Below, in pieces: positions 13,289 to 27,604 of a stretch of DNA of 37,199 bases. The notes beneath the pieces are model-generated. The model did no database searches. It was not told the origin of the DNA and saw nothing but the letters and a program-made list of their open reading frames with translations. Each line of letters starts with the position of its first letter. Position 1 is the stretch's first letter. Made by a program: the position numbers and the translations under genes. Origin of the DNA: an uncultured Bacteroidota bacterium (GTDB taxonomy: Bacteria > Bacteroidota > Bacteroidia > Chitinophagales > Chitinophagaceae); assembly GCA_937902875.1 (NCBI GenBank), contig CALFNL010000141.1, positions 1-37,199 of the forward strand, written 5' to 3'.

Positions 13289-14293
13289 TCATCGAGGCTG
13301 ATGCATGATCAGGGTATTAATTGCATCCTGCACTATTTCGGGAGGGCAATTTTCTATAAGGCGGAAATGACCTTTGCCCTTTGGGTTCCAGGTATCACTC
13401 CCATCATCGGCAACCAACATGCGACCTTCCTGGATCCGATACCAGGGCCGCCATCCTTTTATGGCCACCAGCACAGCGGTTTCATCCCAACTCATTCTTC
13501 CTGCAGAATCTTCCGGTGACTGCGGAATGCTGATTCTGAAAACATCCTTCACAGGGCTGTGTATGATAGAATCGTTATGTATGAGTGGCAAACCCGTTTT
13601 GATCTTCATGCCAATTTCAAATCCACTCAGCAACACAGGCCCGCTCCATTGTTCAAAGACCATTTTGGAAGAGGCAGCATCCCTTTCCACGTTGAATTCC
13701 TTTCCGGAGGGAAACCTGCCAGCCATGCATACAAGCTGCTTTACTTTCTGTTTCACCAGGTCTTGCCCGTTGAGGGGTGAATATTGATCGGGTCCTGACC
13801 TAAGCAGGTCTGCCAGGTTGGTGAGAAAACCCACTGTTACGATGGTGACAGAATGCGGCCCCTGGCTCGATAGTATCTTACGGTATAGCTCAACCGCATT
13901 TGTTGCATCATCATTTTTTAAATAATAATGAGGATAGCGGGCCAGTAAAGTATCTGTCCAGTGCTGTTTGTCGCGCAATTCCAGCCCATGGCCTTTAGGC
14001 GTGCCAATGGGAATATCCGGCTTCTTGAAATAAGTGTTGAAAACATTCAGCACACCAGCTACTGATTCATACCTGGTGCTGGCAATCGTGGCCAGAATTT
14101 TCGCCTGTCCGCTATCGGCGAGAGCATGTAAAATAGCAATAGCTCCCACATCGTCGTAATCGGGACCCATATCTGAGTCAAAGATTATGTGGGCAGGTTT
14201 TGAGGGAATAGATTGAGATATTGCCTTGACCGGGCAGGCCAGCAATAGAATCCAGGGCACGATCCGAAGTGATATCATTATTTTGCGATTCAT
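13289..14293 (-). CDS. Secreted inosine-uridine-type nucleoside hydrolase
   Basis: A 334-residue protein with a signal peptide (hydrophobic core IVPWILLLACPV, residues 11-22) followed by a nucleoside hydrolase domain. The Ca2+-binding Asp cluster is FDSDMGPDYDDVG at 38-50, the family's DxDxxxDD motif. A further segment SVTIVTVGFLTNLADLL matches the conserved TNLA stretch, and the late catalytic/ligand region is MSWDETAVLVAIKG, with the conserved D-E-T. The enzyme splits ribonucleosides into ribose and base; here this would happen outside the cytoplasm. I took the ATG at 14293 over a TTG two codons upstream. It ends a reverse-strand cluster after the transporter (131 bp gap), ADP-ribosylglycohydrolase-like gene and ribokinase, fitting release of ribose for import. 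Confidence 0.88.
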   Translation of the reverse strand: MNRKIMISLRIVPWILLLACPVKAISQSIPSKPAHIIFDSDMGPDYDDVGAIAILHALADSGQAKILATIASTRYESVAGVLNVFNTYFKKPDIPIGTPKGHGLELRDKQHWTDTLLARYPHYYLKNDDATNAVELYRKILSSQGPHSVTIVTVGFLTNLADLLRSGPDQYSPLNGQDLVKQKVKQLVCMAGRFPSGKEFNVERDAASSKMVFEQWSGPVLLSGFEIGMKIKTGLPLIHNDSIIHSPVKDVFRISIPQSPEDSAGRMSWDETAVLVAIKGWRPWYRIQEGRMLVADDGSDTWNPKGKGHFRLIENCPPEIVQDAINTLIMHQPR

Positions 14294-14424
14294 GAGCAAG
14301 TTTATTAAATGTAAATCAGCATTAATTCGTGCTGGATGAATCAGACTCTGGGTGAATCCATGTTCATAATATTGGGTTGCACGTTAGAAAAACCATGGCG
14401 CTTGATTTTACGAGTAAATCTTAC

Positions 14425-15426
14425 TTAGAAATTCCTCGCCAAGATGATCAAAGCCAATCCGGCTGCATATAATAATAACATAATCATGAGAACTCTATTG
14501 GTTCCCGCTGGAGCATTCCTGAATTCTTTCCACACATAAATGCCCCAAAGCGCCGCAACTATGGTGGCGCCCTGCCCCAATCCATAGGAAATAGCCGGGC
14601 CCGCCTTACCCGACGCGATGATGCTGAACGACATTCCGATGCACCATATAATTCCACCCAGAACGCCCATTAGGTGATTGCGAAAACTGCCATGGAGATA
14701 ATCTGAAAATGAAACGGCATTACCCGCAAAGGGCTTGCGCATGATGATGGTGTTGAATAAAAGATTGCTCAGGAAAATACCAATCGAAAAAAACACAACC
14801 GCGGTATAAGGACTCAATTTACCCGGTTCCAAAAGGAGAAAATCGGGAGAGATGGAATCTGCCACAAATTTGTAAAACACACCCATCAGGCAGCCGCTCA
14901 CCACTGAAAGCATAAGCCCCCTCGAAGAAACGGCCCCAGATCCCTTCTGCATTTTCCTGTAGGCGGAGGCATTCAGTACGATGGCTATAATAATCAATGC
15001 CACGCCGCCGAAAAGTAATAGGATATTTCCCACAGGGTTACTGATATAATTTGTGATTACTCCAAGTGCAAGGGCAATGCCAATGCCTACGGGGAAAGCC
15101 ACAGACATGCCGGCAATTGAAATGGCGGCCACCAATAAAATATTGGCCAGGTTAAAGATTACGCCTCCTAAAAGGGCGCTTCCTAAATATTTTACCTGCG
15201 CCTGTTCCAGATCGGTCAGGAATCCCCGTCCTGTTTCGCCATTACTACCAAGGGTAAGCGCAAAAATGAGTGACGTTAAAAGGATGCCAAAAGCATAGTC
15301 CCAATAGAATAATTCAAAACGCCAGCTTTTGGATGCTAATTTCTGGGTATTGGCCCAGGAACCCCAACAAAGCATGGTTATGAAACAAAATGCTACGGCG
15401 GCGGGATAACTTTCAATGACAAACAT
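14425..15426 (-). CDS. Sugar transporter of the DMT superfamily (GRP/RhaT-like), likely ribose
   Basis: A 333-residue integral membrane protein with about ten transmembrane helices. The N-terminal MLCWGSWANTQKLA and the later FNLANILLVAAISIAGMSVAFPVGIG resemble the glucose/ribose porter and RhaT group of the drug/metabolite transporter superfamily, where a W-G-S-W segment marks helix 1. A second half-repeat begins near SYGLGQGATIVAALWGIYVWKEF. It should be a proton-coupled sugar importer in the inner membrane. Ribose is inferred from its neighbours: it starts 15 bp after the ADP-ribosylglycohydrolase-like gene and precedes the nucleoside hydrolase, with ribokinase at the head of the cluster. 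Another pentose or a nucleoside is possible. Confidence 0.8.
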   Translation of the reverse strand: MFVIESYPAAVAFCFITMLCWGSWANTQKLASKSWRFELFYWDYAFGILLTSLIFALTLGSNGETGRGFLTDLEQAQVKYLGSALLGGVIFNLANILLVAAISIAGMSVAFPVGIGIALALGVITNYISNPVGNILLLFGGVALIIIAIVLNASAYRKMQKGSGAVSSRGLMLSVVSGCLMGVFYKFVADSISPDFLLLEPGKLSPYTAVVFFSIGIFLSNLLFNTIIMRKPFAGNAVSFSDYLHGSFRNHLMGVLGGIIWCIGMSFSIIASGKAGPAISYGLGQGATIVAALWGIYVWKEFRNAPAGTNRVLMIMLLLYAAGLALIILARNF

Positions 15427-15441
15427 ATAGGAGGATCTGAT

Positions 15442-17001
15442 TTATTTGAGAGATTTTTTTCCTGCGCCGGCGCCATTCAAATCCATACCTCTTATTGGAG
15501 CGTCGCCATAAATGATGGCTTCATCCACTTTCAACTCGTGCTCCCGGCCTGGATTCAGGATTTTCAACCTTACCTGGTGTTTTCCCTTTGGCAATTGGTA
15601 TTTCCAGCATAACTCATATCGCCTTGTGGTATAATTCGCTGGCAATTCCGGCGATTCCACCAGGGTTCCGTCAACATATAATTCCGTATGGAAAACAAAA
15701 TCTGATTCGCTGCCCCAGGGTGCGGCATCCCCTCTCAATACAAATCCAATACCTTCAAAATCAAAATTAACGGCGTCCTTTTCGGCTGACCATTGAACCG
15801 GAATTTTTGCAACAGGGAAAAGTCCTGGAAAGGATTTTTCGTACCGGACTACTACCGGGGCTTCGGACAATATCCTGATCTGAGAACCCTGGATGCTGCC
15901 TCCATGGCGACTTATATTTTCGAGGGCATGCTTATATCCAATTTCATACACGTCGCGAAGCGACATGGTTGTGTATTTGAAATCCATCTCTTCTATGGCG
16001 GCCAGTCCCATTTTCCAATATGCGGGGATCTTGTCATACCCCAGCACCGTACCAAGAATTCCGCCCGCGGTAGAGGGATTGCAATCTGCATCCTGACCGC
16101 AGCGAGTGGTAATTTGAAGGGTCTTGCCGAAATCGCCGCCTCCATAAAGCAGGCCCAGCACCACGTATGCTGCATTTAGTTTTGCATCAATATTGAAAGG
16201 GGAGAAAACGCCTTCGGGGCAACCGATATCATCGGCCCATTTTTTTTGAATCTCAAACCATGTCGATTTCCAGTTGAGGGGATATTTCCGGTGCCATTCT
16301 AAAACGTCGTGAATGCATTCATAGAATTCACTCCTGGGTGGGATTGTCTTCAGGGCTTCTGATACAATAAATGGAATATTCTTCGATGTAAAGGCGAGAG
16401 CATACATGGCTCCTACGTACACGCCACCATACCAGCCGTCGCCGTAATTCATGATATGTCCAATTTTATCGCTTATGGAAGAGGCCACATTAGGCATGCC
16501 CGGGCTCATCAATCCCGCGAAATCTGATTCAATCTGGTAGTCTATACAATCCGCATGGGGATTGTTAAGCCAGTGGCCAGACATGGGTGCCTTGATTCCA
16601 TGCAGAATATTATACCTGCCGGCCTGGTTGGCATGCCAAAGCATATATCCCGCATGTGCATAAGCGTTAGCAAATGAATCAGTAGGGGCATCGAGCCCGT
16701 TTTTTTCAAATACATCCACAAAGCTCAGATCCATATAAAGATCATCGTAGAGCCCGGGATTATTGGTCATGGCTTCTTTCAGGTAACCATCGTACCATGA
16801 TATGGGTTGATAATCGCTAATAAAACTGCCTTGGAAACGAAATTCCATGGGGCCTCCAAAAGTTACACCGATGGTTTGCCCGGCCCAGCCTCCCCGAATC
16901 TTATCCTGCAAATCCTGTTTTGAAATGAGGATGGTTTTATGCTGGGCAAAACACGTGATACCAGCCATGAAAAACCAGAAGGCAAGAAATAGTATTTTCA
17001 T
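15442..17001 (-). CDS. Secreted ADP-ribosylglycohydrolase-family protein with C-terminal beta domain
   Basis: A 519-residue protein with an N-terminal signal peptide (MKILFLAFWFFMAGITCFAQ). Residues about 28-370 form an ADP-ribosylglycohydrolase-type helical domain: GGWAGQTIGVTFGG at 37-50, the first metal site DDLYMD at 86-91 and the second at GQDADCNPSTAGG (302-314). Both acidic sites are intact, so a Mg2+-dependent hydrolase is likely. A C-terminal region (about 385-510) is beta-rich with LYVDGTLVESPELP, like a carbohydrate-binding or jelly-roll module. Family members remove ADP-ribose from proteins or small molecules, but the exported type may act on N- or O-ribosides. It lies 15 bp before the transporter gene and downstream of ribokinase, which supports release of a ribosyl sugar. 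Confidence 0.85.
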   Translation of the reverse strand: MKILFLAFWFFMAGITCFAQHKTILISKQDLQDKIRGGWAGQTIGVTFGGPMEFRFQGSFISDYQPISWYDGYLKEAMTNNPGLYDDLYMDLSFVDVFEKNGLDAPTDSFANAYAHAGYMLWHANQAGRYNILHGIKAPMSGHWLNNPHADCIDYQIESDFAGLMSPGMPNVASSISDKIGHIMNYGDGWYGGVYVGAMYALAFTSKNIPFIVSEALKTIPPRSEFYECIHDVLEWHRKYPLNWKSTWFEIQKKWADDIGCPEGVFSPFNIDAKLNAAYVVLGLLYGGGDFGKTLQITTRCGQDADCNPSTAGGILGTVLGYDKIPAYWKMGLAAIEEMDFKYTTMSLRDVYEIGYKHALENISRHGGSIQGSQIRILSEAPVVVRYEKSFPGLFPVAKIPVQWSAEKDAVNFDFEGIGFVLRGDAAPWGSESDFVFHTELYVDGTLVESPELPANYTTRRYELCWKYQLPKGKHQVRLKILNPGREHELKVDEAIIYGDAPIRGMDLNGAGAGKKSLK

Positions 17002-17224
17002 TTTTGTATTGTTTGAGGAAAGGAAATGGATGTGAGCTCAGGGGACTCTTTATACATAGATGATACTAATTTACATGAATTATTCTGAGTATTCAGATAC
17101 AGAAATTCCAAAAGCCTTTGCAGGCTGAAAAGATTCTATTCGCGAGTCAGGCGCTGCTTCATTGATATGCGTAAGAATTGGGGCAGGGGCATGAGCTGTT
17201 ATTGGAGCAGAGGATGCTGTGGAA

Positions 17225-18127
17225 CTAGATTTCATGTCTGAAAGGAGCCGAGGCCTGCGCTCCAAGGCGGGTTACAGAAATTGCCGCAGCGGAAGCGGCA
17301 AAATCCACCGCTTCTTCCAGGGGCATTTCTTCGGCAAGCGCCGTGGCCAATGCCCCGTTGAACACATCCCCGGCAGCCGTAGTATCAACCGCCTTTACCT
17401 TTCTGGCAGGTATATATTTGCGTAAGGTGGGGCTGGCAATATAGGAACCATTTTCTCCCAAAGTGATAATCACAGTCCTGACTCCCTTTTTCAATAGTAT
17501 GTCCGCGGCTCTTGCCACATCGGTTATATTGTTGATAGGAATTCCTGCCAGCAATGCTGCTTCCTGCTCATTTGGTGTGAGGTAGTCGATCAGAGGATAG
17601 ATATCATCGGGTAATTGATGCGCAGGTGCAGGATTTACTATGATGATTTTGGAGATGGCGGCACTCTTCCTGATTGCATGAATGACTGATGGCAACGGAA
17701 TTTCCAGTTGCAGCAAGACTATTTTCACCTGATCCGCCGTGGCATTCAATACCTGGTCCACTTCCTGTGGCAGCAGGTTGCCATTGGCTCCGGATGCCAC
17801 TGTGATAGAATTCTCTCCCTGTTCATCCACGTTTATCAGAGCTACACCTGAAGGATGCTCCGCGTCAAAGATCACATGCTCCACATTAATGCCCATATCA
17901 ATCAGGTGTTGTTTGGCGGTTTTCCCGAAAATATCATTGCCTGTTTTACAAAGGAAGATCACTTCCCCATTTAGCCTGGCTGCCGCCACTGCCTGGTTGG
18001 CGCCCTTGCCTCCAGGGTTCATATAAAAATTTCCTCCGATGATTGTCTCTCCCGGCAGGGGGAGTCTCGAGGATTTTATGACCATATCTGTATTGGAACT
18101 TCCAACCACCAGGATCTTTTTTTTCAT
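17225..18127 (-). CDS. rbsK: Ribokinase
   Basis: A 300-residue cytoplasmic PfkB-family kinase that phosphorylates ribose to ribose 5-phosphate with ATP. Signature 1 is MNPGGKGANQAVAAARL (36-52) and signature 2 is DTTAAGDVFNGALA (248-261), with catalytic base Asp254. The N-terminal LVVGSSNTDMV and substrate motif PLPGETI match ribokinase rather than adenosine kinase or fructokinase. The ATG at 18127 gives the normal start; the frame extends 12 codons upstream without need. It is first in the reverse-strand cluster with the ADP-ribosylglycohydrolase-like, transporter and nucleoside hydrolase genes; the next gene begins 223 bp downstream, so an internal promoter is possible. Its divergent neighbour is the ethanolamine-type permease. 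Confidence 0.93.
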   Translation of the reverse strand: MKKKILVVGSSNTDMVIKSSRLPLPGETIIGGNFYMNPGGKGANQAVAAARLNGEVIFLCKTGNDIFGKTAKQHLIDMGINVEHVIFDAEHPSGVALINVDEQGENSITVASGANGNLLPQEVDQVLNATADQVKIVLLQLEIPLPSVIHAIRKSAAISKIIIVNPAPAHQLPDDIYPLIDYLTPNEQEAALLAGIPINNITDVARAADILLKKGVRTVIITLGENGSYIASPTLRKYIPARKVKAVDTTAAGDVFNGALATALAEEMPLEEAVDFAASAAAISVTRLGAQASAPFRHEI

Positions 18128-18373
18128 GATTGTAGATTGAGTCCGGCCCAGGGATAGCGGCAATTAAATTACAGGAATTTCCCCAATTTCTCATTAAGTA
18201 GCACTTCCATATAAAATCTATGAGCTCGCACACCTGAATTTACACTATTGGCGGGGAAGCCGGTGATTGCTGCAATCCAATTCAATTTAATTCCTTATGA
18301 TTTCTTCAGGAAAACATGAGGACCGGCCGAATAAATCTTATTGATTATTCTGTTATTTAATTAATTTCATCAG
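18128..18373. promoter_or_regulatory. Divergent intergenic region between the ribosyl and amino-alcohol clusters
   Basis: This 246-bp gap must hold the promoters of rbsK (reverse) and the permease operon (forward). I found no clean TTTG/TAnnTTTG pair and no convincing long dyad on either strand. The 60 bp before the permease ATG are AT-rich (TTAATTAATTTC). No regulator gene lies next to it. Confidence 0.45.
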
Positions 18374-19729
18374 ATGGGTTCAAAATTGCCGGATTCTTCA
18401 TCTTCGCAACAGCTTTCGCGGTCTCTGGGACCGCTGATGTTATGGGGACTTGGTGTTGGATACGTTATTTCGGGTATGTATTTTGGCTGGAACCTGGGCC
18501 TGGCGGAAGGCGGCACTTATGGACTGGCCATCGCGACCTCTTTCATTATCGTTCTTTATATCACTTTCACTTTTTCATATACCGAGTTGGCCTGCGCCAT
18601 TCCAAAAGCGGGAGGTGTTTTTGACTATGCCACCAGGGGATTGGGAAAGGATATTGGTTTTTTGGCAGGCATGGCGCAGATCATCGAATTCATATTTGCA
18701 CCCCCCGCTATAGCAGCGGCAATTGGGGCCTATTTCCATATTTTTTTTCCACAGCTTTCCGTTACCAGTATCGCGATTGGTGCCTATATTATTTTCACCG
18801 GCCTGAATATTTATGGAGTAAGGGCTGCAGCAGCTTTTGAGCTTATCATTACCATGCTGGCTGTATTTGAATTGTTATTGTTTGCAGGAATTACATTCCC
18901 ACATTTCAAATCGGAGAATATACGAGCCAATGCTTTCCCGGCCGGTTGGACGGGGGTATGGGCCTCTATTCCATTCGCCGTTTGGTTTTTTCTGGGTCTT
19001 GAGGGCGTGGCGAATGTTGCGGAAGAAACCATCAATCCCCAGCGGAATGTGCTGATAGGTTTTGGCTCCGCTCTACTCACTTTGATCGTACTGTGCATTT
19101 TGGTTTTCCTTTCTTCCGTGGGAGTGGCCGGTTGGGAAGCAGTAGTATTTCCATATCAGGGAGCAGGCCCTTCAGACTCTCCGCTGCCTCTGGCACTTTC
19201 CAGGATCACCGGAAATAGCGGATGGCTCTATCACCTGCTCATTACTATCGGGCTCATGGGGCTGGTTGCTTCTTTTCATGGAATCATTCTGGCGGCGGGC
19301 CGTGCTACTTTTGAATTCGGCAGGGTAAGATATATCCCATCCATATTCGGAGCAGTCAATACGCGCTTCAAGACTCCTGCCAATGCGCTGCTGATCAATA
19401 TGGCTATCGGGATCATAGCCTTACTCACAGGCAAAACAAACCAAATCATCATCATCGCCTCATTCGGTGCGCTCACCCTTTATGTGATTTCGATGGTAGC
19501 AGTGATCGCTCTCCGGCGCAAAGAACCGCAAATGCCACGTCCTTTCAGAGTGCCGCTCTATCCCTGGTTTCCGGCAATAGCGCTGGTCATCGCTTTTTTA
19601 TCGTTGATAGCTATGACCACACTCAATATTAATTTGGCAATGATCTATTTCGGCTTGCTGGGCCTATCCTATCTTTGGTTTCAGTTTTTCGTAAAAAAAA
19701 TGGTTTATGCCCAAACAACTGAAGAATAA
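18374..19729 (+). CDS. Ethanolamine permease-like APC transporter
   Basis: A 451-residue inner-membrane protein with about twelve hydrophobic segments, of the amino acid-polyamine-organocation superfamily. The opening GYVISGMYFGWNLGLAEGGTYG (read 29-50) is the hallmark of the ethanolamine permease group, followed by the APC helix 2-3 region ELACAIPKAGGVFDYATRG and the GLEGVANVAEETINPQRNV loop near 215-233. It should import ethanolamine or a similar amino alcohol with a cation. It starts the forward cluster and its last 23 bases overlap the ligase gene, indicating translational coupling. That linkage to a glutamine-synthetase-like ligase supports an amine substrate that is then glutamylated. 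Other small amines remain possible. Confidence 0.87.
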   Translation: MGSKLPDSSSSQQLSRSLGPLMLWGLGVGYVISGMYFGWNLGLAEGGTYGLAIATSFIIVLYITFTFSYTELACAIPKAGGVFDYATRGLGKDIGFLAGMAQIIEFIFAPPAIAAAIGAYFHIFFPQLSVTSIAIGAYIIFTGLNIYGVRAAAAFELIITMLAVFELLLFAGITFPHFKSENIRANAFPAGWTGVWASIPFAVWFFLGLEGVANVAEETINPQRNVLIGFGSALLTLIVLCILVFLSSVGVAGWEAVVFPYQGAGPSDSPLPLALSRITGNSGWLYHLLITIGLMGLVASFHGIILAAGRATFEFGRVRYIPSIFGAVNTRFKTPANALLINMAIGIIALLTGKTNQIIIIASFGALTLYVISMVAVIALRRKEPQMPRPFRVPLYPWFPAIALVIAFLSLIAMTTLNINLAMIYFGLLGLSYLWFQFFVKKMVYAQTTEE

Positions 19730-21077
19730 AGACATCCTGCAAATCCTTGCGGAAAGGGGCGTGGAAAAAATAAAGCTTGCCATTACTGATATTGACGGCG
19801 TACTGCGAGGGAAATTGATCAGTTTTGAAAAATTCAGGTCGGTCATTCAAAAGGGCTTCGGTTTTTGCGATGTGGTTTTTGGTTGGGATGCCGGAGATGC
19901 GGCTTATGACAACGTGAAGTTTACCGGGTGGCATTCAGGGTATCCGGATGCTACGGCGATGGTTGATCTGGATACATACAGGCAGGTTCCATGGGAAGAT
20001 GACCTTCCATTTTTTCTCGCTGATTTCAGAGACGCTTCCGGCAATGAACTTCCCGTATGCCCCAGGAGCCTGTTGAAAAGAATCACGGCGCAGGCGGAGG
20101 ATGCCGGTTACCTGCCCCAATTTTCGCAGGAGTTTGAATGGTTCAATTTTGTAAATAACACCACGGAATTGTATGAAAATAAATTCCGGGATCTCAAACC
20201 GATGACGCAGGGCATGTTTGGCTATTCCATACTTCGGGCTTCCCAGGAAAGTTCTTTTTTTCACGATCTGTTCGATCTGCTGCTGAAATTCAAAGTGCCG
20301 CTTGAAGGAATCCATACGGAAACGGGCCCCGGGGTGTATGAAGCGGCAATACTCTATGCCGGTGTGATTGAGGCCGCCGACCGCGCCGTTCTGTTTAAGA
20401 GCGGTGTAAAAGAAATCGCCCACCGTCATGGATTGATTGCGAGCTTCATGGCTAAATGGAATGAAAATTTGCCCGGTTGCAGTGGCCATGTACACCAGAG
20501 CCTTTGGTCCGCTGATGGAAAAAGGAATTTATTTTTTGATAAGAAAGCAAAATCGGGCATGAGCAGCCTCATGGAGCATTATCTCGCGGGACAATTGGCA
20601 TGTTTGCCGCATATACTCCCGATGTTTGCGCCTACAGTTAACAGTTATAAAAGGCTTGTTGAAGGAGCCTGGGCACCCACTACAATTACATGGGCCATTG
20701 ACAACCGCACAACGGCATTGAGGGCTCTGCCGGGTAGCGCCACAGGTTGCAGGTTAGAAACCAGGGTGGTGGGTTCTGACGCCAATCCATACCTGGCGAT
20801 GGCTGGATGCCTGGCTTCGGGGATATATGGGATCAGGAATAAACTGAAATTGAAAACCGCCGCCACCCTTGGAAATGGTTATAAAGATACCAGGAATGGC
20901 AGGCTGCCTTCCAATCTCTGGGAAGCTTCCATGGCGATGAAGCAATCTGCCCTGGCCAGGGAATTATTCGGTGATGCTTTCACGGATCATTTTACGGCCA
21001 CCCGTGAATGGGAATGGCGCCAATTTTCGAAAGTGGTCACTGATTGGGAATTGAAGCGGTATCTGGAAATTATATGA
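19707..21077 (+). CDS. Glutamine-synthetase-like gamma-glutamyl-amine ligase (PuuA/GlnA4 type)
   Basis: A 456-residue member of the glutamine synthetase superfamily, predicted to join glutamate to an amine using ATP. The N-terminal beta-grasp carries KLAITDIDGVLRGKLI (23-38), typical of PuuA-like ligases. Catalytic-domain motifs are ETGPGVYEAAI, the His-loop GCSGHVHQSLWSADG, the NSYKRLVEGAWAP segment and the Arg-rich LETRVVGSDANPYLAMAG. The sequence does not have the adenylylation-site region expected of housekeeping GlnA. Related enzymes make gamma-glutamylputrescine (PuuA), gamma-glutamylethanolamide (Streptomyces GlnA4) or gamma-glutamylisopropylamide (IpuC). With an ethanolamine-type permease overlapping it by 23 bp and an alcohol dehydrogenase downstream, an amino alcohol such as ethanolamine is the best guess. 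Confidence 0.88.
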   Translation: MPKQLKNKDILQILAERGVEKIKLAITDIDGVLRGKLISFEKFRSVIQKGFGFCDVVFGWDAGDAAYDNVKFTGWHSGYPDATAMVDLDTYRQVPWEDDLPFFLADFRDASGNELPVCPRSLLKRITAQAEDAGYLPQFSQEFEWFNFVNNTTELYENKFRDLKPMTQGMFGYSILRASQESSFFHDLFDLLLKFKVPLEGIHTETGPGVYEAAILYAGVIEAADRAVLFKSGVKEIAHRHGLIASFMAKWNENLPGCSGHVHQSLWSADGKRNLFFDKKAKSGMSSLMEHYLAGQLACLPHILPMFAPTVNSYKRLVEGAWAPTTITWAIDNRTTALRALPGSATGCRLETRVVGSDANPYLAMAGCLASGIYGIRNKLKLKTAATLGNGYKDTRNGRLPSNLWEASMAMKQSALARELFGDAFTDHFTATREWEWRQFSKVVTDWELKRYLEII

Positions 21078-21245
21078 GATTTTGGAAATGAGAGGAGCCC
21101 ATGGAACAACAGGAAACTGAAGGGAGTTGCCGCGACTGCATTAGCAGCGCGGCGGGCAGGCCAGAAAGAAACTGAAAAAGCGATGCCGCTGGAAATAAGA
21201 CTTTTTTTCAACAAAAATTATTCAGGGTAAAACCCGGATATTACC

Positions 21246-22397
21246 ATGATTGACTATACAGTAATAAGGCAATTTAATTTTCCCACTACCATACGGTTTG
21301 GCGCGGGAGCCTCCAGGGAATTGCCTGCATATCTGGCGCAACAACAACTAAAAGCGCCGCTACTGGTAACGGATCCTACCATTGCCCAACTCCCTTTTTT
21401 TAAATCCATTGTGGAAGACCTAAAGAAACACCAGATTTCGGTTGAGCTATTCAGTGAAATCCATAAGAACCCTGTAAAGTCGGATGTGTACAAGGGCACA
21501 AGCGCCTGGGATGCCACAAAGCGTGATTCCATCATTGGCATTGGCGGAGGAGCCGCCCTGGATGTGGCAAGGGCCATAGCCTTGCGCGTCAATCATAGGG
21601 AGGATCTATTTAAATATGATGACCTGATAGGGGGAGATATTTATGTTACACAAGACGTGCCACACTTTATTACCATTCCAACAACTTCCGGCACCGGCAG
21701 TGAAGTGGGGAGGAGCGCTATCATTTCTGACGATGAAACGCACCAGAAGAAAATTTTGTTCTCTCCAAAACTGATGGCAAGAATTGTGTTCGCCGACCCC
21801 TTGCTTACGATGGATCTGCCTGCTTTTGTAACGGCAGCAACGGGTATGGACGCGCTCACGCACAATATGGAAGCTTACCTGGCGAAGAATCCGCATCCCA
21901 TATGCGAAGGCATTGCACTGGAAGGGATTTCATTGATCAGGGATTCCCTCAAAAAAGCCACGCTTAAGCCCGATCTCGAATCGAGATCCAAAATGCTGAT
22001 GGCTTCCATGATGGGCGCAATAGCTTTTCAAAAGGGTTTGGGTGTGGTGCATTCTCTGGCACACCCATTGTCATCATTGCTGGATACGCATCATGGTCTC
22101 GCCAATGCGGTGAATATCCCCTATGGCATGCGGTTCAATATTGCCGGTTTTGAAGAACCATTCAGAAGGATTGCAAGGGCGCTTGAATTGGAAAGCGAAA
22201 ACGGAGAAGCAGTTGTGGAATATTTGTTTGACCTGAATAGCGCTATCAACATTCCGCATAAACTTCGTGAGATTGGTGTGAAGATGGAACATATTGACAC
22301 CCTGGCCGGGCTGGCCGAAGCGGATTTCGCACATCCCAATAACCCCAAGCCTGTTAACAGGGCGAATTTTAAACAACTTTACCTGGAAGCACTCTAG
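21246..22397 (+). CDS. Iron-containing (group III) alcohol dehydrogenase
   Basis: A 383-residue NAD(P)-dependent dehydrogenase. The nucleotide-binding part has GIGGGAALDVARA (98-110), and the TIPTTSGTGSEV segment (144-154) is strongly typical. The metal ligands are intact: Asp202 and His206 (GMDALTH), His269 (VVHSLAHPLS) and His283 (DTHHGLAN). The C-terminus ends NPKPVNRANFKQLYLEAL, as expected. In its cluster the natural substrate would be the hydroxyl of gamma-glutamylethanolamide, giving an aldehyde for the ALDH gene downstream; this is inference. The gene starts 168 bp after the ligase stop and is followed after 19 bp by the amidotransferase-like hydrolase. No frameshift or missing residue was seen. 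Confidence 0.92.
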   Translation: MIDYTVIRQFNFPTTIRFGAGASRELPAYLAQQQLKAPLLVTDPTIAQLPFFKSIVEDLKKHQISVELFSEIHKNPVKSDVYKGTSAWDATKRDSIIGIGGGAALDVARAIALRVNHREDLFKYDDLIGGDIYVTQDVPHFITIPTTSGTGSEVGRSAIISDDETHQKKILFSPKLMARIVFADPLLTMDLPAFVTAATGMDALTHNMEAYLAKNPHPICEGIALEGISLIRDSLKKATLKPDLESRSKMLMASMMGAIAFQKGLGVVHSLAHPLSSLLDTHHGLANAVNIPYGMRFNIAGFEEPFRRIARALELESENGEAVVEYLFDLNSAINIPHKLREIGVKMEHIDTLAGLAEADFAHPNNPKPVNRANFKQLYLEAL

Positions 22398-22416
22398 AAC
22401 AATAAGGGGCTGAAAA

Positions 22417-23157
22417 ATGGCCCTGACCAATATTCAAAGTATAATGGTGAAGGCAAATCAAATGATCATAGGCGTTAGCGATTGTAGCAAGTTCGCCAAC
22501 TATAGCAAATGGATAGGCGCCTGTGCTCAGGTGGCTGAAGTAGTTAAACTGGATTCTGAAAATGAAAATATCCAGGACTTGAAAAGGTGTCATGGGCTGG
22601 TGCTTACCGGGGGTGAAGACCTGCATCCGCGATACTATGGAATGCCTGAATACTATGAATTTTGCTATAAGTGTGACGTGAATGAGAAACGGGATGAATT
22701 TGAAAGGAAGTTGTTGGATTTGAGCCAGCGGCTGGAGCTTCCGGTGCTGGGGATTTGCCGTGGTCTGCAGGTTGTCAATGCATTTTTTGGGGGAACCTTG
22801 ATTCCGGATATTCCGCGCTGGGGAAAATTCAACCATTCTAAATTGGAGGATGGCAGGGATCGAATACATTCCATTCAAGTAGATCCCAATTCGTGGTTCT
22901 TCAGGATCGTGCAGAAAGAACATGGAACAGTGAATAGTAATCATCATCAGAGTGCAGACAGGATTAGTGCAGATTTGGTGGCAAGCGCCTTTTCGACGGA
23001 TGGGGTTGTGGAAGCACTTGAAAGAAAAGAACCCAACGGGAAACCCTTTCTTTGTCTGGTGCAATGGCATCCCGAAAGGATGGTGGATCAGCAAGGGAAT
23101 TTTGTGCAGAATATTCGTAGTTCGTTTATTGCTGCGGCCCAGAACAGAATCGAATAG
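22417..23157 (+). CDS. Class I glutamine amidotransferase-like gamma-glutamyl hydrolase (PuuD-like)
   Basis: A 246-residue cytoplasmic hydrolase of the gamma-glutamyl-gamma-aminobutyrate hydrolase family. The nucleophile is Cys114 in LGICRGLQVVNAFFGGTL, and the catalytic His218 and Glu220 are in VQWHPERM. LVLTGGEDLHPRYYG (61-75) and SNHHQS are the family's other marks. Family members remove glutamate from gamma-glutamylated amine products. The ATG at 22417 is preceded by AAGGGG at a suitable distance; an internal ATG at codon 16 (MIIGVSDC) is the start closest to homologues. It lies 19 bp after the alcohol dehydrogenase and 74 bp before the ALDH. In this cluster it would split gamma-glutamylglycine into glutamate and glycine. 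Confidence 0.9.
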   Translation: MALTNIQSIMVKANQMIIGVSDCSKFANYSKWIGACAQVAEVVKLDSENENIQDLKRCHGLVLTGGEDLHPRYYGMPEYYEFCYKCDVNEKRDEFERKLLDLSQRLELPVLGICRGLQVVNAFFGGTLIPDIPRWGKFNHSKLEDGRDRIHSIQVDPNSWFFRIVQKEHGTVNSNHHQSADRISADLVASAFSTDGVVEALERKEPNGKPFLCLVQWHPERMVDQQGNFVQNIRSSFIAAAQNRIE

Positions 23158-23231
23158 AAGAATATATTTTCAAGTATGAGTCAGAAAGAATAAAATTCGG
23201 CCTTGCATAAGAATTGAAAAAAGTAATCCAG

Positions 23232-24596
23232 ATGAAAATCATTAACCCCGCTACGGAAGAAGTGCTGGAGGAATTGAGGGAAGAAGATGAAAAGACGATT
23301 CAGGAAAAATACAGGCTACTGAAAAATGGCCAGCCTGCATGGGCGGCTCTGCCAATTGACAGGAGGATTGCCTTCATTGCAAAGTTTTATGATCTGCTGG
23401 AGGCGGAAAAAGATCATCTGGCCGCGACCCTTACAAGTGAAGTGGGAAAACCATTGCAGCAATCTTACAATGAACTGAACGGAGCCCGCGCAAGAATTAA
23501 ATTTTTTATAGACAATTCTGCCAGGTGGCTGAAAGATGAATGGATCATTACTGAAGGAGCCACCCGGGAAAAGATTGCGTATGAACCTCTGGGCGTGATT
23601 GCCAATATCAGCGCCTGGAATTATCCTTATCTGGTAGGAATGAACGTGATCATTCCGGCTTTGATTGGAGGTAATGCGGTATTGTACAAACCCTCGGAAT
23701 ATTCAACCCTCACGGGCTTGGCCATTCAGCAATTATTGTACAGATCAGGTATTCCTGAAAATGTTTTTCAAACAGCTGTTGGCAAAGGAGATGTGGGGGA
23801 AATGATATTGTCGCTGCCTTTGGATGGATATTTTTTTACCGGCAGCTTTCGAACCGGAAAAAGCATCGCGGAAAAAGTAGCGCCCAAGCTGGTTCCCTGC
23901 CAGTTGGAATTAGGTGGAAAGGATCCACTATACGTGATGGATGATATAGAGGATATTGATAAAGTGGCGGAAGCTGCACTGGAGGGGGTTGTGTACAATA
24001 ATGGCCAGAGTTGCTGCGCGGTGGAACGCATCTATGTGCATGAAAAAATTTTTGACCGGTTTGTGGATTCATTTACGCGACATGCAAAAAAATTGCGCAT
24101 TGGCAATCCAGGGGATGCCGACACGGAGATTGGTCCATTAACGAGGAAAGGCCAGGTGGAATTCTTATTGTCGCAGATCCGGGATGCCCGGGATAAGGGA
24201 GCTACAATATTGTGTGGTGGAAATCAACCGGAGCGGAAGGGTTATTTTATTGAACCCACTGTATTGGTGAATGTCAATCACCAAATGAGGCTCATGACGG
24301 AAGAATCGTTCGGTCCGGTAGTGGGAATTCAGAAAGTGAAAGATGACGAAGAAGCCATTCGGCTCATGCAGGACACAGAATATGGCCTAACGGCAGCCGT
24401 GTATTCAAAAAGTTTTGAGAGGGCCGAAACCATCATGAAAGAATTAGACACGGGAACCGTTTATTGGAATTGCTGTGATCGTGTGAGTGCCGGCCTGCCC
24501 TGGTCTGGACGCAGGCATTCGGGCCTTGGTGTCACATTGTCTTACCAGGGAATTCGCGCATTTGTGCAACCTAAAGCATTTCACCTCAGGGGCTAA
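23232..24596 (+). CDS. Aldehyde dehydrogenase of the succinate-semialdehyde type
   Basis: A 454-residue NAD(P)-dependent aldehyde dehydrogenase. Key residues are intact: Asn130 in SAWNYPY, Lys153 in YKPSEYS, Glu226 in LELGGKDP and a catalytic Cys261/Cys262 in NNGQSCCAVERIYVH. The C-terminal ESFGPVVGIQKV and SGLGVTLSYQGIRAFVQ segments are normal for the family. It begins MKIINPATEEV at the ATG at 23232; a TTG six codons upstream is less likely. It ends the forward cluster of permease, ligase, alcohol dehydrogenase and hydrolase. In that context it would oxidise gamma-glutamyl-aminoacetaldehyde to gamma-glutamylglycine, as PuuC oxidises gamma-glutamyl-aminobutyraldehyde. The double cysteine is seen in several ALDHs and is not a defect. 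Confidence 0.92.
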   Translation: MKIINPATEEVLEELREEDEKTIQEKYRLLKNGQPAWAALPIDRRIAFIAKFYDLLEAEKDHLAATLTSEVGKPLQQSYNELNGARARIKFFIDNSARWLKDEWIITEGATREKIAYEPLGVIANISAWNYPYLVGMNVIIPALIGGNAVLYKPSEYSTLTGLAIQQLLYRSGIPENVFQTAVGKGDVGEMILSLPLDGYFFTGSFRTGKSIAEKVAPKLVPCQLELGGKDPLYVMDDIEDIDKVAEAALEGVVYNNGQSCCAVERIYVHEKIFDRFVDSFTRHAKKLRIGNPGDADTEIGPLTRKGQVEFLLSQIRDARDKGATILCGGNQPERKGYFIEPTVLVNVNHQMRLMTEESFGPVVGIQKVKDDEEAIRLMQDTEYGLTAAVYSKSFERAETIMKELDTGTVYWNCCDRVSAGLPWSGRRHSGLGVTLSYQGIRAFVQPKAFHLRG

Positions 24597-24760: not shown

Positions 24761-25264
24761 ATGAAATCGTCCAAACCGATCAAACGCAATGAAAACCTGC
24801 TTTGGCTGTCACGCGACCATCACCACGGCCTGATGCTGGGGTGGAAGGTGAAGCAGGGATTGCAGAATGGCACGGACTTACGCGAAATAGCGGCCTACGT
24901 TCATTTTTGCTGGGTACATGCTATCATGCCACATTTCAAAGACGAAGAGCAATATCTTTTTGTGGCGCTGCCTGAAAAAGACGGAAAACGATGCCTGGCA
25001 GAAGCACAGCACGCTTATCTGAAACAATTGGCTGAAATCATCAATGATGGCAGCAGGATTCTTTGCGAACATATATTTGAAGAGTTTAGTGAAATGATGG
25101 AAAGACATATCCGCTTTGAAGAAAAAATTTTGTTCCCTTACCTGGAACAGAAATTGAATTCCGAAGAATTAAACAAGATTGGCTGGCAACTGGAGCAAAC
25201 GCATGCCGTGAAATTCGTGGACAACTGGCATCACGAATTCTGGAAGAAGAGAGCAGAGGGATAA
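24761..25264 (+). CDS. Hemerythrin-domain protein
   Basis: A 167-residue, mainly helical cytoplasmic protein with the hemerythrin HHE pattern. SRDHHHGLMLGWKVKQG near 17-33 supplies the first His, HAIMPHFKDEEQYLF around 53-67 the second His and Glu, and MMERHIRFEEKILFPYLE around 118-135 the H-x-x-x-E and the typical ILFPYLE end. These residues would bind a di-iron centre that can sense or carry O2, NO or iron. It has no partner domain, so it is a stand-alone hemerythrin-like protein. It lies between the amino-alcohol cluster and a sugar transporter-kinase pair, without an obvious functional link to either. No signal peptide is present. Confidence 0.85.
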   Translation: MKSSKPIKRNENLLWLSRDHHHGLMLGWKVKQGLQNGTDLREIAAYVHFCWVHAIMPHFKDEEQYLFVALPEKDGKRCLAEAQHAYLKQLAEIINDGSRILCEHIFEEFSEMMERHIRFEEKILFPYLEQKLNSEELNKIGWQLEQTHAVKFVDNWHHEFWKKRAEG

Positions 25265-25358: not shown

Positions 25359-26681
25359 ATGCTACAAAGAAAAATAATTCTCTGGTCACTGATAGTGGCC
25401 CTCGGAGGTTTTTTATTTGGATTTGATACGGCCGTAATTTCAGGCGCCGAGCAGGCAATCCAGAAATATTGGTCACTCAATGATTTCCAGCATGGACTCA
25501 CGGTGGCGATTGCCCTCATTGGTACCGCATTTGGCGCCCTGCTGGGTGGAATACCTTCAGACAAACTGGGAAGAAAGGGAACCCTCTTCCTGATAGCGGC
25601 CCTCTTCTTATTCGCTTCATTGGGCACGGCTTTGGCCACCAACTGGTACGCATTCCTCTTATTTCGATTCCTGGGCGGATTGGGAGTTGGCGCATCATCG
25701 GTTACGGCTCCGATTTATATTTCCGAAATTTCGCCTGCCCGGAACCGTGGCAAACTGGTAGCCTTGTTTCAGTTCAATATTGTTTTTGGCATATTGGTTT
25801 CTTATTTATCCAACTATCTCATCGGGCTCAGTGGCGAAGGCTCCTGGCGACTGATGCTGGGTGTGCAGGCTGTTCCTTCCCTGGTATTTCTATTGCTCAT
25901 CCGCTTCATTCCCGAAAGCCCCAGATGGCTGATATTGAAAAGAGGCAGGATTGAAGAAGCCCGTGCCACCATGCAAATCATTGATCCCACCGGTTTTGAC
26001 CAGGACCTCATGGAGATCCAAAAGACGAGCGCAGCGGCCGTGAAAGAATCCGCTTCAATATTCTCTAACAAATATCGAAGGCCGGTTATGCTGGCCATGT
26101 TACTCGCCTTGTTCAACCAACTCTCAGGAATCAACGCCATCATCTATTTTGCGCCCAGGATCTTTGAAATGAGCGGACTGGCAAAGAGCTCATCACTTTT
26201 ATCAACGGTGGGCATTGGAGTGGTAAATTTTTCTTTTACGCTCCTGGCCATGAATTTCATCGACCGCTTTGGAAGAAAGACGCTCATGAAGATTGGATCC
26301 ATTGGACTGGTCCTCACCCTGGGATTGGCATCCTATGCATTTTACCAGCATATAGGAGGTTGGGCCATCACTGTAGCCCTGTTGATGTATATCGCATTTT
26401 TTGCGTTTTCACAGGGCGCGGTGATATGGGTATTCATTTCGGAAATATTTCCAAATGAGGTAAGAGCCAGGGGACAAACTCTGGGCAGCTCCACCCACTG
26501 GATCATGGCCGTGATCATTGCTTTCAATTTCCCCTATTTTGCCGATAAATTTGGCGGGGGTCCCATATTTCTGTTTTTCTGTTTAATGATGATACTGCAA
26601 ATGATTTTTGTTTGGAGAGTGATGCCTGAAACAAAGGGTAAATCGCTTGAACAGATTGGTGACACGGTGATCTTGCACTAA
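25359..26681 (+). CDS. Sugar porter of the major facilitator superfamily
   Basis: A 440-residue inner-membrane protein with twelve hydrophobic segments. It bears the sugar porter signatures: GFLFGFDTAVISGA near 17-30, DKLGRKG near 68-74, PESPRWLILKRGR near 184-196, QLSGINAIIYFAP near 250-262, DRFGRKT in the second half and the C-terminal PETKGKSLEQI. The QLSGIN segment and the overall fit to the XylE/GlcP/FrcP-type porters point to a monosaccharide:H+ symporter. The kinase gene begins 8 bp after its stop, so the two are an operon. With a fructokinase-like partner the substrate is most likely fructose or glucose; this is inference from context. Confidence 0.9.
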   Translation: MLQRKIILWSLIVALGGFLFGFDTAVISGAEQAIQKYWSLNDFQHGLTVAIALIGTAFGALLGGIPSDKLGRKGTLFLIAALFLFASLGTALATNWYAFLLFRFLGGLGVGASSVTAPIYISEISPARNRGKLVALFQFNIVFGILVSYLSNYLIGLSGEGSWRLMLGVQAVPSLVFLLLIRFIPESPRWLILKRGRIEEARATMQIIDPTGFDQDLMEIQKTSAAAVKESASIFSNKYRRPVMLAMLLALFNQLSGINAIIYFAPRIFEMSGLAKSSSLLSTVGIGVVNFSFTLLAMNFIDRFGRKTLMKIGSIGLVLTLGLASYAFYQHIGGWAITVALLMYIAFFAFSQGAVIWVFISEIFPNEVRARGQTLGSSTHWIMAVIIAFNFPYFADKFGGGPIFLFFCLMMILQMIFVWRVMPETKGKSLEQIGDTVILH

Positions 26682-26689
26682 ATATTTGA

Positions 26690-27604
26690 ATGTTGAAGGA
26701 GAACAAGCACTATAGGGTAGTTTGTTTCGGAGAGATACTTTGGGATATTTTGCCCGATGCCAAAATGCCTGGCGGGGCCCCAATGAATGTGGCTTATCAT
26801 TTGAACCAGTTGCAGACGCCAGCTGCGTTGATCAGTTGTGTAGGTGTAGACGTTTTGTCTGAAGAATTGTTGCGTTTCATCGAATCAAAAGGACTCTGCT
26901 CCGATTTCATTCAGCGGGATGCAGAACATCCCACGGGCAAAGTCTTGGCAAGTTTGCATGGCAATGAGGTAAATTATGAAATCCTTCAGCCCGTTGCCTG
27001 GGATTTTATCAGGGCAAGCCAGGCGCTGCAGGAATTGGTAGCAGGATCAGAGTATTTCATATTCGGCAGCCTCGCCGCGCGCAATCAGGTTTCCCGTGAA
27101 ACTCTTTTTCAATTACTCGAAATGGCTTCTTTTAAGATTTTTGATATCAATCTCAGGGAACCTCATTATAAGCAAAAAGTGTTGGAGTATTTGTTGCAGC
27201 ATGCCGACATGCTGAAGCTCAACACCGCGGAACTGGATCTCCTGAGTGAATGGTTTCAATTTCGTGGTAGCGAAAGGGAGCGTATGATGAGTTTGCAGGA
27301 AAGATTTCAGCTTCATACTGTGGTTACCACCCGGGGTGAAAAAGGAGCCATAGCGTTGAATGACGGGGATTTTTATGAACACCATGGGTTTAGAGTGAAA
27401 GTTGCCGACGCGATTGGGGCCGGAGACGCTTTCCTGGCGGCATTCCTCTCAAAATTCATGAGACCCTTGCCGATGGATGAAGCCATTGAGTATGCTTCTG
27501 CAATGGGTGCCTTCGTGGCCACGAGGCAGGGCGCCTGCCCAAGCTATGTAAAAGAGGAAATTGACCAATTCCTGCTGGCGGCTAAGCGTAGCGGTTACGC
27601 ATAA
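26690..27604 (+). CDS. PfkB-family carbohydrate kinase, fructokinase-like
   Basis: A 304-residue cytoplasmic sugar kinase. The start VCFGEILWDILPDAKMPGG and GGAPMNVAYHLNQL (28-41) match the fructokinase branch of the PfkB family, and ADAIGAGDAFLAAFL near 237-251 holds the catalytic Asp in GAGD. Length and motifs are complete. It follows the sugar porter by 8 bp, so it probably phosphorylates the sugar that porter imports. Its last 10 bases overlap the end of the convergent acyl-CoA ligase gene. A kinase for another ketose or for 2-keto-3-deoxygluconate cannot be excluded, but the N-terminal G-E-x-L-W-D pattern favours fructose. Confidence 0.88.
   Translation: MLKENKHYRVVCFGEILWDILPDAKMPGGAPMNVAYHLNQLQTPAALISCVGVDVLSEELLRFIESKGLCSDFIQRDAEHPTGKVLASLHGNEVNYEILQPVAWDFIRASQALQELVAGSEYFIFGSLAARNQVSRETLFQLLEMASFKIFDINLREPHYKQKVLEYLLQHADMLKLNTAELDLLSEWFQFRGSERERMMSLQERFQLHTVVTTRGEKGAIALNDGDFYEHHGFRVKVADAIGAGDAFLAAFLSKFMRPLPMDEAIEYASAMGAFVATRQGACPSYVKEEIDQFLLAAKRSGYA

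Follow-up and report, generated by a model that had tools for sequence, protein, structure and literature searches.

A candidate cobalamin-independent ethanolamine operon in Bacteroidota that combines glutamate tagging with an iron-dependent alcohol dehydrogenase

Ethanolamine released from phosphatidylethanolamine is a widespread source of nitrogen and carbon. The idea that it can be degraded through gamma-glutamylation, iron-dependent dehydrogenase included, is already published: the system of Chromohalobacter salexigens is tabulated in PMC9397018 (Table 2, crediting Vetting 2015). A related operon in Phaeobacter sp. MED193 is induced on phosphorylethanolamine (PMC10132767), and GlnA4 of Streptomyces coelicolor glutamylates ethanolamine in vitro (PMC6529630). 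Our literature search, which had partial coverage, found no description of the pathway in Bacteroidota.

The window analyzed here is a stretch of 37,199 nucleotides from an uncultured Bacteroidota bacterium of the Chitinophagaceae (assembly GCA_937902875.1, contig CALFNL010000141.1). The initial annotation had described in it five complete forward genes forming a candidate gamma-glutamylation pathway for ethanolamine. All five open reading frames were recovered, with order and coordinates as follows:

18374..19729, plus strand: Eat-type ethanolamine permease of the APC superfamily (TIGR00908 equivalog; Pfam AA_permease_2), with relatives beside EutB and inside GlnA4-like operons
19707..21077, plus strand: glutamine-synthetase-like gamma-glutamyl ligase (PF00120, Gln-synt_C), the proposed gamma-glutamylethanolamide synthetase
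21246..22397, plus strand: iron-dependent alcohol dehydrogenase (Fe-ADH; PF00465 and PF25137, ADH_Fe_C), the proposed gamma-glutamylethanolamide dehydrogenase
22417..23157, plus strand: Peptidase C26 (PuuD-like) hydrolase (PF07722, Peptidase_C26), the proposed gamma-glutamylglycine hydrolase
23214..24596, plus strand: aldehyde dehydrogenase (ALDH; PF00171, Aldedh), proposed to convert the gamma-glutamyl aldehyde to gamma-glutamylglycine

The permease and ligase genes overlap by 23 nt, as originally reported, 168 nt separate the ligase gene from the Fe-ADH gene, and the ALDH gene starts at either TTG 23214 or ATG 23232. Promoter and terminator scans returned no more matches than in shuffled sequence, and Rfam returned no match.

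The family assignments of the initial annotation held up well. The permease scored 440.5 bits against TIGR00908, above the curated NCBIfam cut-off of 381.75, in line with its description as an ethanolamine-type permease, and relatives from other loci likewise passed this model. The metal ligands of the Fe-ADH (D202, H206, H269, and H283), the Cys-His-Glu residues of the hydrolase (Cys114, His218, and Glu220), and the active site of the ALDH (Glu232 and Cys267, the cysteine of a GQSC motif) are all in place, as had been claimed. The closest solved structures to the hydrolase are Lin1909, 7d4r, and PuuD. Those residues of glutamine synthetase that bind metal, glutamate, and ATP are conserved in the ligase, which has lost the ammonium site: E327 and Y179 (glutamine synthetase numbering) are replaced by W322 and F171 in the ligase, which speaks against a glutamine synthetase. 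Its score of 211.4 bits against TIGR00653, for which the cut-off is 429.15, lies below the GlnA model cut-offs.

The cluster is flanked by ribokinase, hemerythrin-like, sugar porter, and PfkB kinase genes. Upstream, on the minus strand, window positions 13289-18163 hold a nucleoside hydrolase, a ureide/sugar permease, an ADP-ribosylglycohydrolase that may carry a signal peptide, and the ribokinase, all in one direction; this set looks suited to recovering ribose from ADP-ribose or nucleosides. Downstream, the hemerythrin-like gene (24761-25264) is followed at 25359-27604 by a sugar porter MFS transporter and a PfkB-family (fructokinase-like) kinase.

We consider it highly probable that the five genes form a cytoplasmic, cobalamin-independent ethanolamine catabolic operon that works by glutamate tagging and releases glycine. 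All of its chemistry here is inferred: the substrate and, from family membership, the individual reactions and the cofactor. The permease would import ethanolamine, and the ligase would use ATP to join it to the gamma-carboxyl of glutamate, giving gamma-glutamylethanolamide. The Fe-ADH would use NAD(P) to oxidize the free primary hydroxyl of this amide to an aldehyde, the ALDH would oxidize the gamma-glutamyl aldehyde further to gamma-glutamylglycine, and the C26 hydrolase would split that product into glycine and glutamate, the latter being recycled. An ALDH acting after an alcohol dehydrogenase points to a primary alcohol and argues against secondary alcohols. The recurrence of the gene set, the co-occurrence of ligase and Fe-ADH, the absence of EutB, and the context of the permease all favor the initial proposal of a gamma-glutamylation route for ethanolamine through an Fe-ADH, and together they make it very likely in our judgment.

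Ligase, Fe-ADH, hydrolase, and ALDH occur together in 42 of 80 related Bacteroidota loci, and in 29 of those 42 the permease is in place as well; other loci have a short contig or split genes. Cultured carriers include Pedobacter cryoconitis and Flavihumibacter profundi (L010), the latter with a 76% relative of the window's ligase. With these counts the arrangement is not a product of chance, and the search for the same five-gene order in other Bacteroidota that the initial annotation had suggested came out in its favor, the gene set being widely recurrent. In seven related loci (L004:9857-11938, L008, L009:9567-11654 of Terrimonas pollutisoli, L012, L013, L035:9580-11664, and L053:9711-11792), C26 hydrolase and ALDH form a single fused protein of 691-706 residues; Pfam confirms the fusion in four of the seven. 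Such a fusion fits two predicted consecutive steps of one pathway.

The association between ligase and Fe-ADH extends beyond gene neighborhoods. Several queries were run against 249 genomes of the same order, nearly all of them with a completeness of 90% or more, and Fe-ADH and ligase were counted as present at E values up to 1e-100. The ligase was found in 77 of the 249 genomes and the Fe-ADH in 50. All Fe-ADHs fell in ligase-bearing genomes (50/77, vs. 0/172 without the ligase; Fisher p ~4e-33, a value inflated by shared ancestry). In 23 of the 50 Fe-ADH genomes the two genes lie within 8 kb of each other, in 1 they are far apart on the same contig, and in 26 they are on different contigs, although contig breaks may conceal some linkage in this last group. 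Finding two genes together without linkage argues more strongly for a common pathway than operon membership by itself would, and ligase and Fe-ADH do co-occur when their genes lie apart.

The proposed route would dispense with EutB, and the initial annotation had suggested checking other Bacteroidota genomes for absence of eutBC. The host genome (3.8 Mb, 93.3% complete and in 461 contigs) encodes a second Gln-synt_C protein and a second Fe-ADH besides those of the cluster. No EutB was found in it, although at this completeness the absence is not absolute. Nor was any found by the order-wide search in the 50 Fe-ADH genomes, compared with 13 of the 199 others (p 0.08). That Fe-ADH and EutB never occur together in these genomes is suggestive, yet weak when taken alone.

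The ligases closest to that of the window come from Chitinophagaceae and Bacteroidetes MAGs, and in the ligase tree its clade also includes ligases of Photobacterium and Legionella. This clade is separate from that of IpuC and from the one containing the TRAP-operon ligases and PDB entry 5dm3, which we take to be Csal_0679 of C. salexigens (support 100/100 and 100/99 for the separation from the 5dm3/TRAP clade). We know of no assayed enzyme in the window's clade. The best plasmid homologs of the ligase and the Fe-ADH share operons in Legionella lytica, Photobacterium DA100 and GJ3, Marinovum, and Paracoccus. In P. denitrificans and Marinovum these operons comprise RpiR, a formylglutamate amidohydrolase, a TRAP transporter, ligase, ALDH, and Fe-ADH, which is the published Phaeobacter ethanolamine layout (PMC10132767); the P. 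denitrificans operon contains PF05013, whereas the window has Peptidase_C26 instead. The unannotated operon of Photobacterium GJ3 (L089) combines an Eat permease and a ligase of the window's clade with an ALDH and an Fe-ADH that is ~50% identical to the P. denitrificans Fe-ADH. It differs from the window in gene order and in having a class-I amidotransferase rather than a C26 hydrolase.

On a Rhizobium leguminosarum plasmid (L085:3561-10741), a ligase of the window's clade is accompanied by an ALDH and a C26 hydrolase, with a GMC oxidoreductase nearby that might replace the Fe-ADH as the alcohol-oxidizing step.

Two candidate substrate markers were rejected. A conserved Arg near the Fe-ADH active site was dropped, as such a residue is apparently widespread in Fe-ADHs. 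Whether Trp or Phe occupies the E327 position does not mark ethanolamine ligases either: the 5dm3/TRAP ligases have Phe, as GlnA4 does (PMC6529630), but Trp is present in the SDR-type ligases of that same clade.

The genomic context of the permease bears on the substrate. Relatives of the window's permease, 43-47% identical, are present in 12 of the 13 EutB genomes of the same order, and in ten (G008, G097, G126, G146, G178, G191, G219, G227, G233, and G249) the permease and EutB genes are neighbors, ~60-280 bp apart. Relatives that are 65-69% identical occur in seven genomes with neither a window-type ligase nor the Fe-ADH (G013, G041, G053, G068, G082, G176, and G188). There, the permease lies beside a ligase of the 5dm3/Paracoccus-TRAP clade, together with an SDR (7/7), an ALDH (6/7), and a class-I amidotransferase (5/7). 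These seven SDR operons match the glnA4 cluster (PMC6529630), the comparison being with its published gene list only. The permease tree places the window's permease together with those of the GlnA4-like operons, apart from the EutB-linked ones. Judged by sequence, then, one permease family is common to three modules, two of which are independently tied to ethanolamine. Since the family accompanies both EutB and the GlnA4-type cluster, the transporter points to ethanolamine.

The same chain of reactions could nevertheless act on a different primary amino alcohol (alaninol, 3-aminopropanol, or serinol, for example), with ethanolamine a secondary substrate or none at all. The window's ligase forms a clade of its own, apart from the 5dm3/TRAP and IpuC ligases, glutamine-synthetase-like amine ligases can be broad, and TIGR00908 is a family label that carries no measured specificity. 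Set against these points are the company that the permease family keeps, with two systems that both act on ethanolamine, and the fact that no other primary amino alcohol is nearly as common in nature as ethanolamine. We therefore regard a different amino alcohol as unlikely. It would make the cluster an undescribed catabolic pathway that had borrowed an ethanolamine transporter family, an outcome to which we give the same low weight.

Not all ligases of this group accompany an Fe-ADH. An unannotated protein of ~350 residues is present in 26 of the 27 genomes that have the ligase and lack the Fe-ADH, and in only 3 of the 50 Fe-ADH genomes. In most loci examined it adjoins the ligase and is followed by a HAD-IIA phosphatase (L107:5037-8682, L109, L110, L111, L112, L113, L115, L116, L117, and L069:7007-10496). 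In the ligase tree, the ligases of this cassette belong to the same clade and branch beside the Fe-ADH-linked ones; the ligase clade alone therefore does not fix the pathway. The invariant motifs of the ~350-residue protein, DWNIGNFSV and SRWDYDWFR, presumably resemble those of the aminoglycoside-phosphotransferase/choline-kinase fold, and the protein is possibly kinase-like. Neither Pfam nor NCBIfam matched it, a profile of its family retrieved nothing significant from the PDB, its score against a choline kinase family protein was not significant, and its AlphaFold model had a mean pLDDT of 36.7. An operon on a plasmid of Arthrobacter sp. U41 (L152:1545-11266) contains a 5dm3-type ligase, a C26 hydrolase, an ALDH, and an SDR, and proteins of the choline kinase and inositol monophosphatase families are encoded nearby; the locus echoes the cassette of ligase, kinase-like protein, and phosphatase.

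The cassette suggests that members of the ligase clade probably serve other roles too, and glutamylation has been argued to lower toxicity as well (PMC9397018). The amide in the window might accordingly be made or recycled for another purpose, such as ethanolamine detoxification or a gamma-glutamyl product, with glycine not the main output. The window, however, has both oxidizing enzymes and the C26 hydrolase, and seven related loci encode C26 and ALDH as one fusion, a combination that fits full degradation and leaves this reading improbable. The least probable reading is a Puu-like putrescine or polyamine pathway with the Fe-ADH acting elsewhere: although the ligase, C26 hydrolase, and ALDH are homologous to PuuA, PuuD, and PuuC, the ligase, at 204 bits, falls far short of the gamma-glutamylputrescine synthetase cut-off of 650, the genes adjoining the cluster include neither a PuuB-type amine oxidase nor a PuuE transaminase, PuuP is a distant outgroup to the window's permease in the permease tree, and the Fe-ADH tracks the ligase genome by genome.

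If the cluster does degrade ethanolamine by way of gamma-glutamylglycine, many Bacteroidota would use ethanolamine without cobalamin or a microcompartment, and within one order a single transporter family would feed EutB, a GlnA4-like SDR set, and an Fe-ADH set. Pathway annotation would also become possible for genes now labeled glutamine synthetase, iron-containing alcohol dehydrogenase, and gamma-glutamyl-GABA hydrolase.

Among described systems, those of C. salexigens and Phaeobacter share with the window a PF00120 ligase, a PF00465 dehydrogenase, a PF00171 ALDH, an amidohydrolase, ethanolamine uptake, and the proposed intermediates. They have a formylglutamate amidohydrolase (PF05013) and a TRAP transporter where the window has a C26 hydrolase and an Eat permease, and their ligases belong to the distinct 5dm3/TRAP clade. 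The GlnA4 cluster of S. coelicolor (SCO1610-1615; PMC6529630) likewise has a glutamine-synthetase-like ligase, an ALDH, and a hydrolase, with a permease in related species, but it relies on a short-chain dehydrogenase and an amidotransferase in place of the Fe-ADH and C26 hydrolase. The Puu pathway of E. coli (PuuABCD) shares the glutamyl-tagging logic and a homologous ligase, ALDH, and C26 hydrolase; there, the PuuB amine oxidase acts on the second amino group, whereas in the window an alcohol dehydrogenase would act on the hydroxyl. In the Ipu system, IpuC is also a glutamine-synthetase-like ligase with tryptophan at the E327 position, and a C26 hydrolase and an ALDH lie near IpuC on a Paenarthrobacter plasmid. 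On the plasmids seen, however, IpuC neighbors a P450 and a ferredoxin, and its clade is separate. The locus described here thus stands apart by its ligase clade, by a C26 hydrolase that in some relatives is fused to the ALDH, by the Eat-type permease, and by its occurrence in Bacteroidota.
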